A stretch of DNA of 64,000 nt from Pelagicoccus enzymogenes (GTDB lineage Bacteria; Verrucomicrobiota; Verrucomicrobiia; Opitutales; Opitutaceae), in NCBI RefSeq assembly GCF_014803405.1, contig NZ_JACYFG010000061.1, forward strand, positions 62,001-126,000. The letters run 5' to 3'. Of this stretch, positions 44,571 to 50,855 are shown one piece after another. The notes beneath the pieces were generated by a model, which did not search any database, was not told where the DNA came from, and saw only the letters and a program-made list of their open reading frames with translations. The position numbers and the translations under genes were made by a program. Position 1 is the stretch's first letter, and each line of letters opens with the position of its first letter.

Positions 44571-45425
44571 ATGCCACTAAAAAATCTAAGCGTTAACTGC
44601 CTTCTCAAAGCTCCTGCGCGGAAGCGTTTCTCGAACGGCTACACCCCCATCATCGAGGGCAAGCCGAGAGGAGCCACTCCGGCTAAGCTGGACAGCGACT
44701 TCGGCATCCTGCGTCTCGGACGCAAGCGCTCGAAGACCGTTACCACCACCGGAGAAACCGCTTGGGTCCTCCTGCATGGCGAACTCACCGCTGTCGTCGA
44801 CGACGAAACCTTCACCGCCTCCCGCGCCTCCCTTTTCGACGAAGAGCCTGCCACCTTGCACGTGGGAGCTGGGACCACAGTCAAGCTGAGCGCCGGAGAA
44901 AACGGAGCCGAACTGGCCGAAGTTCGCTCGCCCTTGAAACGCCAGCTTCCGACTCGCTTCACCATCGGCGGCGACCTCCCTTCCGAACACCGCGGCGCGG
45001 GCTTGGTCCAAGGGACCTGCCAACGCTGCGTGCGCACTGTATTCGATTATTCGACACGCCCGGAGTCCGGCCTCGTCATCGGCGAAGTCGTCAACTACCC
45101 GGGCCGCTGGTCGAGCTACCCGCCGCACCACCATCCGCAGCCAGAGATCTACCACTACCGCTTCACCAAGCCGCAAGGCTACGGCCACGCCGAGCTGGGC
45201 GACGACGTTCTGAAAGTCACCGAGGGCGACACGGTCGTCATCCCCGACGGTCTCGACCACGCCCAAGTTTCCGCTCCTGGCTACGGCATGTACTACCTCT
45301 GGATCGTACGCCACCTGCCGCGCCGCCCCTACAAAGGCTTCACCTTCACCAAAGCCCACACCTGGCTCCTCGATCCCAACAACCAAGGATGGGCCCCCAA
45401 TCTTCCCTCAAACCCCGCACAATGA
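44571..45425 (+). CDS. iolB: 5-deoxy-glucuronate isomerase IolB
   Basis: This 284-residue bicupin isomerase converts 5-deoxy-D-glucuronate to 5-dehydro-2-deoxy-D-gluconate, the product of the last ring-derived step. The metal site SYPPHHHPQPEIYHYRF at about residues 183-199 (three consecutive His, then Glu) is the IolB hallmark, and the length matches the family. Its TGA overlaps the iolD ATG (ATGA), showing tight coupling. Confidence 0.95.
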   Translation: MPLKNLSVNCLLKAPARKRFSNGYTPIIEGKPRGATPAKLDSDFGILRLGRKRSKTVTTTGETAWVLLHGELTAVVDDETFTASRASLFDEEPATLHVGAGTTVKLSAGENGAELAEVRSPLKRQLPTRFTIGGDLPSEHRGAGLVQGTCQRCVRTVFDYSTRPESGLVIGEVVNYPGRWSSYPPHHHPQPEIYHYRFTKPQGYGHAELGDDVLKVTEGDTVVIPDGLDHAQVSAPGYGMYYLWIVRHLPRRPYKGFTFTKAHTWLLDPNNQGWAPNLPSNPAQ

Positions 45426-49370: not shown

Positions 49371-50855
49371 ATGCTTCCTATCTGCAGATCATTCATTGCC
49401 GGCGAATGGGCCGCCCCTACAGGCGCTTCTTCCGGAACGGTATTCAATCCTTCACTTGGCGAGCCCATCGCCACTGTTCCTTTCGCCGGACCCGACGAGG
49501 TCGATCGCGCCGTGAAAGCCGCCCACGAGGCTTTCCCTGCATGGGCTGCCACGCCGCCCAGCGAGCGGGCTCGCATCATGTTTCGCTACCGCGACCTGAT
49601 CGAGCGCCACTACGACGAGATAGCCGCCCTCATCTCTCGCGAGCACGGCAAGACCCTCGCCGAATCGCGCGGCGACCTCTTCCGCGGATTGGAAGTCGTC
49701 GAACTGGCTTGCGGAGCGCCATCGCTCTTGATGGGCGAACTTCTGCCCAATATTGCCCGCGGCATCGACGGTGAACTCACTCGCCATCCGCTGGGCGTCT
49801 GCGTCGGCATCACGCCGTTCAACTTCCCCGCCATGATCCCGCTTTGGATGTTCCCGCTCGCCCTCATGGCCGGAAACACCTTTGTATTCAAACCGAGCGA
49901 ACGCGTACCGCTCACCGCCAACCGCCTCACCGAGCTCCTGCTCGAAGCCGGTCTGCCCAAGGGCGTCTTCCAGCTGGTACAAGGTGACCGCGCCGCCGTC
50001 GAGTCCCTGCTCGTGCACCCTCTCGTCCGCGCCGTATCCTTCGTCGGCTCCACTCCGGTCGCTCGCCAGATTCACGCCACCGCCACCGCACACGGCAAGC
50101 GCGTGCAGGCCAACGGCGGGGCCAAGAACTACGTGGTCGTCATGCCTGACGCGGACGTAGATAAAACCGTCGAAGCCGTCATGAACGCCGCCTTCGGCTG
50201 CGCTGGCGAACGCTGTATGGCTGGATCCGGCATGATCACCGTCGGCGATGGCGGAGCCAAGGTCCTGCCCGCGCTCAAGGAAGCCGCAAGTTCCATGAGT
50301 ATCGGACGCACGGATACGCATAGGCAACCTGACATGGGAGCTGTCATTACCGCCGCCCACCGCGACCGCGTACGCGGACTCGTCGACGCGGGCGAACGCG
50401 ACGGAGCGAGCTTGCTGGTCGACGGCCGCAACACGAAAGTCGCCGACGCTCCCAACGGTTTCTACCTAGGCGCCACCATCGTCGAGAACGTCAAAATAGA
50501 AATGGCCCTCGTGCAGGAAGAAGTTTTCGGCCCGGTCCTCAACGTCATGCATATGGACGATCTGGATACAGCCATCGAACAGGCCAACGCTTCCAGCTTC
50601 GGCAACGGTGCGGCCATCTTCACCCGCAGCGGCGGAGCGGCCCGCAAGTTCAAGCACGAGGTTCAATCGGGCATGATCGGCATCAACGTCGGCGTCCCCG
50701 CCCCCATGGCCATGTTCCCCTTCAGCGGCTGGAACGACTCCTTCTTCGGCGACCAGCACATGCAAGGCCGCCAAGGGATCTACTTCTTTACCCAGCCCAA
50801 GGTCGCCACCTCACGCTGGTTCGCTGAAGGCGAAGGCGACATCTGGAAGAAATAG
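49371..50855 (+). CDS. iolA: malonate/methylmalonate-semialdehyde dehydrogenase (IolA/MmsA)
   Basis: This 494-residue aldehyde dehydrogenase of the CoA-acylating MmsA/IolA family converts malonate semialdehyde to acetyl-CoA and CO2. ITPFNFPAMIPLWMFPLAL is the family-specific NAD-binding region. Cys282 in FGCAGERCMAGS is the nucleophile and MFPFSGWNDSFFGDQHM is the C-terminal signature. It starts at 49371 (MLPICRSFIAGEW). It closes the inositol operon and would consume the product expected from the transaldolase-family enzyme before it. Confidence 0.95.
   Translation: MLPICRSFIAGEWAAPTGASSGTVFNPSLGEPIATVPFAGPDEVDRAVKAAHEAFPAWAATPPSERARIMFRYRDLIERHYDEIAALISREHGKTLAESRGDLFRGLEVVELACGAPSLLMGELLPNIARGIDGELTRHPLGVCVGITPFNFPAMIPLWMFPLALMAGNTFVFKPSERVPLTANRLTELLLEAGLPKGVFQLVQGDRAAVESLLVHPLVRAVSFVGSTPVARQIHATATAHGKRVQANGGAKNYVVVMPDADVDKTVEAVMNAAFGCAGERCMAGSGMITVGDGGAKVLPALKEAASSMSIGRTDTHRQPDMGAVITAAHRDRVRGLVDAGERDGASLLVDGRNTKVADAPNGFYLGATIVENVKIEMALVQEEVFGPVLNVMHMDDLDTAIEQANASSFGNGAAIFTRSGGAARKFKHEVQSGMIGINVGVPAPMAMFPFSGWNDSFFGDQHMQGRQGIYFFTQPKVATSRWFAEGEGDIWKK

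Follow-up and report, generated by a model that had tools for sequence, protein, structure and literature searches.

A transaldolase-like enzyme as a candidate replacement for the kinase and aldolase of inositol degradation in Pelagicoccus enzymogenes and other bacteria

Introduction

Inositol is plentiful in plants and soils, and the known route for its degradation relies on the kinase IolC working with IolJ or DUF2090. A 64,000-nucleotide stretch of the Pelagicoccus enzymogenes genome (contig NZ_JACYFG010000061.1, positions 62,001 to 126,000 of the forward strand; hereafter the window) holds an inositol operon in which the gene for a transaldolase-like enzyme (TAL) lies between iolE and iolA. 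This locus raises the question of how its host gets from 5-dehydro-2-deoxy-D-gluconate (DKG) to malonate semialdehyde. A first-pass annotation of the window had suggested that TAL does the work of both kinase and aldolase. After a survey of the host genome, its phylum and a wider collection of loci, we consider it somewhat better than an even bet (probability about 0.57) that in this myo-inositol operon the steps of IolC and IolJ are both taken over by a dedicated class I transaldolase.

An inositol operon with one step unaccounted for

The genes iolB, iolD, iolE, TAL and iolA follow one another on the + strand with intergenic gaps of −4, −1, 21 and 56 bases, and coordinates and model scores confirm the tight, single-strand packing described at first pass (Table 1). 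The inositol dehydrogenase gene iolG does lie upstream as reported, although not in the same run as iolB, because a short-chain dehydrogenase gene on the opposite strand (43753–44526) intervenes. In tests for the canonical iol pathway IolD, IolE and IolA score over their curated cut-offs, whereas the iolB product falls below its own. Together, the genes cover each step to DKG and the one past malonate semialdehyde; the run contains one other gene, TAL.

The host genome (our label G000), at about 96% completeness, has 60 contigs totalling 6.2 Mb. No IolC kinase scored over the model cut-off of 300 in the cluster or elsewhere in the genome, the best match reaching 206 bits, and DUF2090 was likewise unmatched throughout. 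A single class II aldolase is present; it passes the FbaA models (459 vs 297; 404.5 vs 347.7 bits) and was rejected as an IolJ on that basis, no IolJ model having been run; no iol gene lies in the 4 kb around it. Thus, no IolJ or DUF2090 aldolase was recognised in the host genome, where aldolases of the LacD/DeoC type were not searched for. The earlier statement that iolC and iolJ are lacking therefore holds for the whole genome under the IolC model, DUF2090 and class II aldolase searches; iolC turns up only in a few relatives.

These same searches bear on the idea that the phosphorylated route has been kept, with an unrecognised PfkB-type kinase and a general aldolase handling DKG and TAL serving as an accessory. 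Searched with the IolC model, the host yields 12 PfkB-type matches, and it also has a class II fructose-bisphosphate (FBP) aldolase; three TAL genomes discussed below carry IolC or something near it. However, the best kinase match (C5:134882, 206 bits) was rejected as an IolC, given that it scores higher against a fructokinase model (227 bits, itself below that cut-off) and adjoins a glycoside/hexuronide symporter. Of the remaining 11 matches, the seven next in rank were inspected by eye and resemble deoxygluconate kinases, adenosine kinase, fructokinase, ribokinase and 1-phosphofructokinase, and the aldolase is an FbaA by its scores. Moreover, some TAL genomes offer few PfkB candidates (one in G401, three each in G395 and G397), though these genomes are possibly incomplete. 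We consider this explanation improbable.

TAL is not the sole transaldolase of its genome, an option rejected on finding two others. The pentose phosphate pathway can therefore be served without it.

The proposed reaction

In the pathway that we propose, IolG, IolE, IolD and the IolB-like isomerase would yield unphosphorylated DKG. Lys142 of TAL would then form a Schiff base with the C5 ketone of DKG, and cleavage between C3 and C4 would release malonate semialdehyde, which IolA would convert to acetyl-CoA and CO2. The dihydroxyacetone unit left on the enzyme would be passed to glyceraldehyde-3-phosphate, giving fructose-6-phosphate. The first-pass annotation had reasoned that DKG is a 2-ketose when viewed from C6, and a hand derivation from established structures finds this chemistry sound: seen from that end, DKG is 5-deoxy-D-fructuronate and matches D-fructose in configuration at C3/C4, so that its cleavage would give malonate semialdehyde and a dihydroxyacetone unit. 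The substrate, acceptor and products assigned to TAL are what we infer; observed are the genes present, their recurrence, the lack of IolC and DUF2090 in model searches, the fold and the active-site residues.

Recurrence within and beyond the phylum

A survey of 387 genomes of the phylum (TAL relatives at E ≤ 1e-30; IolD at E ≤ 1e-150, all over the model cut-off) found TAL relatives in 13 genomes and IolD in eight. All eight IolD genomes are among the 13, and in each the TAL gene sits in the same cluster. Two of them, both Lentisphaerota, have a differing order (transporter-iolG-TAL-iolB-iolD-iolE-iolG2-iolA), and in G160 no iolB was found within the stretch taken around the cluster. The TAL relatives of the five genomes without IolD are at 28–48% identity and have other gene settings. 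Neither IolC over cut-off nor DUF2090 was found in any of the 13.

Beyond the phylum, a wider collection was scanned with two motifs from an alignment of nine sequences (A1), so that its 71 loci represent relatives bearing these motifs. Counting only genes on the TAL strand, and leaving out nine loci with a TAL match of under 300 residues, iolD is present in 46, iolE in 48 and iolA in 35 of the 62 loci with a near-full TAL. No iolC, DUF2090 or FBP aldolase gene was found on that strand within any of the 62; in L106 an IolC-like kinase is encoded on the opposite strand, and weaker kinase matches (22–25%) occur in L107, L119 and L120. Loci with both iolD and TAL come from Verrucomicrobiota including Lentisphaerota, Neomarinimicrobiota, Bdellovibrionota, Myxococcota, Latescibacterota, Chloroflexota, unnamed bins and two metagenome-assembled genomes (MAGs) labelled Gammaproteobacteria. 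Taxon labels are as deposited, and one of the latter MAGs (L096) groups with the unnamed bins.

Where whole genomes could be reached from the loci, IolC scored over cut-off in two of 30 entries and near cut-off in a third, and DUF2090 was matched in one of 38 entries searched, eight of which are shared with the 13-genome set. The two surveys overlap: one genome bears two labels, G143 and G416, and is counted under both in the DUF2090, Dak1 and glycerol kinase lists, and the contigs of L050, L093, L094, L097 and L102 match phylum-survey genomes G075, G150, G269, G289 and G143, respectively. The predicted recurrence of iolB-iolD-iolE-TAL-iolA without iolC or iolJ was thus found in several phyla, with varied gene order and with IolC absent genome-wide from nearly all genomes examined, and this recurrence lends support to the suggestion that one enzyme replaces kinase and aldolase.

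Loci in which TAL is present without iolD/E offer a further view of the reaction. Of 20 such distinct loci examined, six (L038, L039, L097, L099, L110 and L112) have an iolA relative beside or near TAL. Four of these relatives pass the methylmalonate semialdehyde dehydrogenase (MMSDH) cut-off (L038, L039, L099 and L112), while of the others one is cut by a contig end and one was not scanned. Such neighbours are expected if the product of TAL is a substrate of MMSDH, and for some loci the pairing fits a semialdehyde product. Taken together, it seems somewhat more probable than not that these loci represent an inositol pathway, widespread but so far undescribed, that leaves DKG unphosphorylated, has a TAL clade (Gln/Met) and an IolB subfamily of its own, and occurs in Verrucomicrobiota including Lentisphaerota, Myxococcota, Bdellovibrionota, Neomarinimicrobiota, Latescibacterota and some Gammaproteobacteria-labelled MAGs, and that the module of TAL and semialdehyde dehydrogenase is reused for other ketose acids.

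A separate transaldolase clade

TAL is well above the gathering score of the Pfam TAL_FSA family (122.7 vs 27 bits). It did not pass the curated transaldolase models, lying below the cut-off of all eight NCBIfam models matched (best 93.3 vs 367), nor the curated fructose-6-phosphate aldolase (FSA) model TIGR00875 (44.5 vs 245.95 bits). An AlphaFold model built from nine sequences (predicted local distance difference test score, pLDDT, 87.7) has the transaldolases of Neisseria and Corynebacterium as its closest folds in a search of the PDB, where the 50 matches listed all belong to the transaldolase family.

Residue columns were checked by alignment to both other transaldolases of the host genome. 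Lys142, at the Schiff-base position, is kept in 71/71 rows, as are Asn46 and Thr166, with Asp25 in 69/71. Gln113 is likewise invariant (71/71), where both other host transaldolases have Glu; we take this position to be Glu96 of TalB and Gln59 of E. coli FSA. Met205 is present in 66 of the 70 rows that have a residue there, and in 63/63 lettered rows of a 64-row set at 40% identity or more; the two host transaldolases have Phe here. Arg208 (67/71) and Arg259 (70/71) presumably correspond to the phosphate-site arginines of TalB. At the C-terminus the nine A1 sequences share an HW...PYxWW motif in which W264, P277, Y278, W280 and W281 are invariant. Judged by sequence, TAL is a separate transaldolase clade in which the Schiff-base lysine is kept, Glu is changed to Gln and Phe to Met. 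The first of these changes had been called correctly at first pass; the second went unmentioned there. The extra length noted at the time was rejected as a departure, as TAL has 360 amino acids and same-type transaldolases from Corynebacterium and Neisseria in the PDB have 360 and 352.

Transfer or release of the dihydroxyacetone unit

The main rival to the proposed transfer is that TAL is an FSA-like aldolase, splitting DKG so that malonate semialdehyde and free dihydroxyacetone are released, the latter to be phosphorylated by a glycerol or dihydroxyacetone kinase. The Glu to Gln change is presumably common to TAL and FSA, and the PDB holds the E. coli TalB variants E96Q and E96Q/F178Y. Of the Gln and Tyr that occupy two water-binding positions in FSA, TAL has the former (Gln113) but has Met205 where we place the Tyr, the Met being without exception in the 63 lettered rows mentioned above. 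The clade thus carries the Gln of FSA without its Tyr, and these residues accordingly accommodate both transfer and lysis. According to PMC13259622, the catalytic water of FSA is bound by a Gln, a Thr and a Tyr; the paper also cites earlier work in which swaps of such residues interconverted aldolase and transaldolase.

The host has two glycerol kinase matches, one over cut-off, and Dak1, glycerol kinase or both occur in 22 of 30 TAL genome entries, as this rival would have it. However, Dak1 accounts for only five of the 30 (glycerol kinase for 20; one genome is entered twice among the 30), was not found by model search in the host genome, and appears in 0/84 loci. Furthermore, eight of the 30 entries have neither match, among them G398, a Latescibacterota MAG deposited as one chromosome record, and G160, rated 100% complete. 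The lack of both in these eight speaks for transfer over free dihydroxyacetone. We therefore regard the aldolase explanation as unlikely, albeit less so than the others considered here, and transfer to a phosphorylated aldehyde, the reaction of the sulfoglycolytic transaldolase (sulfo-TAL) pathway, is favoured by the evidence, though not proven.

The IolB-like subfamily

The iolB product is a clear KduI/IolB member, yet reaches 99 bits against the IolB cut-off of 205. It aligns to the IolB-like structure 2qjv, including at the His and Glu positions that we take to be the IolB metal ligands. In genomes where no IolC exceeds the cut-off, the IolB-like proteins encoded in TAL operons all score 81–105 bits (9/9 tested), whereas IolB from IolC-bearing genomes or plasmids scores 229–339 bits (6/6 tested); one of these six belongs to the TAL locus of the Anaerolineae genome described below as an exception. 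By these scores the operon IolB is a separate subfamily, and since the split tracks the presence of IolC, IolB and TAL appear to have been exchanged together.

A divergent IolB could also mean that TAL acts on some other inositol- or uronate-derived ketose, for example one formed via the IolB-like product, and that malonate semialdehyde arises otherwise. The distinct score range of the subfamily would suit this, as would TAL relatives that occur without iolD/E. Against this, IolD is canonical, making 5-deoxyglucuronate the likely substrate of the isomerase; the presumed metal-ligand positions align, and IolA is canonical as well. We think it very improbable.

In a number of Opitutaceae/Opitutae loci (L054, L056, L057, L058, L065, L066 and L108) a short-chain dehydrogenase gene, iolD, iolE and TAL occur with no iolB in the locus. 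In L056 a 35-residue iolB-like match (1299–1403) may be an iolB remnant.

Exceptions and points against the proposal

Several observations weigh against replacement of IolC and IolJ by TAL. In two genomes, IolC and TAL occur together. G402 (Anaerolineae), whose TAL locus L101 includes iolD, has iolC, iolB and a DeoC/LacD-family aldolase gene on a contig other than that of TAL; in G409 (SAR324), TAL lies beside iolG, and a cluster of the iolC-iolB-aldolase type, with the one DUF2090 match of the survey, is again on another contig. In G405 (Acidimicrobiia) a 296-bit kinase adjoins TAL. A Clavibacter plasmid carries iolC, a Cgl0159-like protein (annotated as an aldolase), iolB and iolD, with a 38% TAL relative past a divergent regulator; this relative has the same Gln and Met. 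For protein families of Clavibacter plasmids, a figure legend in the available portion of PMC5358740 names transaldolase together with iol genes and makes no functional claim.

Further points concern the proposed steps themselves. The IolB-like protein is far below cut-off, which makes DKG only its presumed product, and iolB was not found in nine of the 46 loci with iolD and TAL, two of these being cut by a contig end upstream of iolD. No iolA relative was found in 13 of the 20 TAL loci without iolD/E, and L055, which has one, is probably an ordinary operon cut by a contig end. With the catalytic Glu replaced by Gln and Phe by Met, catalysis would have to differ from that of known transaldolases. 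Finally, many of the surveyed genomes are MAGs and may be incomplete. On the sequences surveyed, lack of IolC is a strong feature of the iolB-D-E-TAL operon, whereas among TAL relatives it has exceptions.

The exceptional loci also hold possible DKGP (phosphorylated DKG) aldolases. In SAR324 and Anaerolineae (L134:7730-10763 and L136:7504-10231), IolC lies in a run with IolB and an unfused DeoC/LacD-family aldolase (PF01791, 89.6 and 84.5 bits), a candidate for a type of DKGP aldolase distinct from IolJ and DUF2090. Next after the Clavibacter iolC (L149:1166-3038) comes a protein whose annotation is deoxyribose-phosphate aldolase but whose sole match is the Pfam family Cgl0159-like (421 bits), another candidate DKGP aldolase family. 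A Curtobacterium plasmid (L121:325-17028) has an inositol cluster without annotated iolC or iolJ, its aldehyde dehydrogenase being annotated as the succinate-semialdehyde type; after two regulators come a split transketolase, a 1-phosphofructokinase-like kinase and phosphoenolpyruvate carboxykinase. Speculatively, this is possibly a transketolase version of the same shortcut.

Neighbouring genes and TAL relatives in other settings

Relatives of the symporter upstream of the operon recur in loci with iol genes and TAL (72% in L030, 58% in L033, 70% in L095 and 49% in L052), as do those of the Gfo/Idh/MocA dehydrogenase (49% in L030, 48% in L095). The short-chain dehydrogenase is a frequent neighbour in Opitutaceae, kept at 54–71% beside many iol-TAL loci there. 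Downstream of the operon are a Pfam Phytase-like protein (52827–54167, 179.7 bits) and a GH115 family glycoside hydrolase (54304–57258, 411.8 bits), from which the source of inositol could be phytate or plant polymers.

Table 1. Genes and active-site codons of the inositol locus, in window coordinates.
Feature	Coordinates	Strand	Basis
Sodium:solute symporter, candidate inositol uptake protein	39126..41171	-	Pfam SSF 73.7 bits
Gfo/Idh/MocA-family dehydrogenase, accessory	41404..42606	+	Pfam GFO_IDH_MocA 78.2 bits
iolG, inositol 2-dehydrogenase	42737..43747	+	TIGR04380 352.2 bits, narrowly under cut-off 355
Short-chain dehydrogenase, role unassigned	43753..44526	-	Gluconate 5-dehydrogenase models best, below cut-off
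iolB-like isomerase, divergent KduI/IolB subfamily	44571..45425	+	TIGR04378 99.1 bits vs cut-off 205; Pfam KduI 177 bits
iolD, trihydroxycyclohexanedione acylhydrolase	45422..47290	+	TIGR04377 904.7 bits, cut-off 715
iolE, inosose dehydratase	47290..48210	+	TIGR04379 335.1 bits, cut-off 290
TAL, transaldolase-like enzyme, proposed substitute for IolC and IolJ acting on 5-dehydro-2-deoxygluconate	48232..49314	+	Pfam TAL_FSA 122.7 bits
Gln113 codon, in place of catalytic Glu	48568..48570	+	Alignment
Lys142 codon, Schiff-base lysine position	48655..48657	+	Lys in 71/71 rows
Met205 codon, in place of active-site Phe	48844..48846	+	Phe in both other host transaldolases
iolA, CoA-acylating malonate/methylmalonate semialdehyde dehydrogenase	49371..50855 (ATG at 49371)	+	TIGR01722 (MMSDH) 629.2 bits, cut-off 448.5

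TAL relatives also occur in settings of other kinds. Two distant members of the phylum carry pairs at 33–36% to the TAL of the window, adjacent in one (L037:2256-4407) and in the other flanking an alcohol-dehydrogenase-like gene, with MMSDH also present (L038:6672-11389); the pairs perhaps belong to another sugar acid pathway. In three Vicinamibacteria loci (L077, L081 and L086) a 48–50% TAL has no iol gene found nearby; upstream is a large receptor-like gene, joined in L081 and L086 by a phosphodiesterase-like gene (by eye). On Shinella plasmids (L150:6756-12842, with the same order in L151) a 35% TAL relative lies within genes annotated as an acetoin-dehydrogenase-like complex, in the order E1 alpha, E1 beta, TAL, E2, E3, with phosphatase and triose-phosphate isomerase genes present; the Gln and Met positions are kept in the L150 relative.

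Significance

A literature search, covering open-licence papers, found no published description of a transaldolase in inositol catabolism; the system is apparently a known pathway and a known enzyme fold in a new role. Many little-studied bacteria appear to degrade inositol via one transaldolase-like enzyme instead of a kinase and an aldolase. If this is true, Verrucomicrobiota, Myxococcota and others could be misread as non-users of inositol. In Bacillus subtilis the inducer is a phosphorylated intermediate, which the pathway proposed here would lack. It would also be, to our knowledge, the second natural case after sulfoglycolysis of a transaldolase making the entry cleavage in catabolism. 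The TAL clade itself is a natural test of the role of the Glu/Gln position in the transaldolase family.

Comparison with known systems

The pathway proposed here shares IolG, IolE, IolD, IolA, an IolB-family isomerase and the start and end compounds with the canonical iol pathway (IolG-E-D-B-C-J-A in B. subtilis; IolC-DUF2090 fusions elsewhere). It differs in having no IolC or DUF2090 over cut-off and no recognised IolJ, in having TAL instead, and in using another IolB subfamily. In PMC9007349, DUF2090 is proposed as the commonest DKGP aldolase, and 16 of 26 inositol users had IolC-DUF2090 and two had IolJ. Gaps in the pathway were thus already known.

As an enzyme, TAL has the fold, length and Schiff-base lysine of the class I transaldolases of Corynebacterium glutamicum and Neisseria (3r5e and 3clm), from which it departs in its low identity (about 23–24%), Gln113 for Glu, Met205 for Phe and the C-terminal HW...PYxWW motif. 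With E. coli FsaA it presumably has in common the Gln at the acid/base position. The FSA chain is shorter, at 220 amino acids, and has Tyr131 (PMC13259622) at what we take to be the Met205 position of TAL.

The sulfo-TAL pathway of sulfoquinovose offers a likeness in logic: SftT, a 6-deoxy-6-sulfofructose transaldolase, splits an unphosphorylated ketose that is acidic at its far end and passes a three-carbon unit to glyceraldehyde-3-phosphate. PMC11659671 provides this precedent with sulfofructose. The substrates differ, and the solved BmSF-TAL chains, at 218–226 amino acids, are distant from TAL (48 bits); by analogy and gene context, TAL would apply the same logic to the DKG of an inositol operon.

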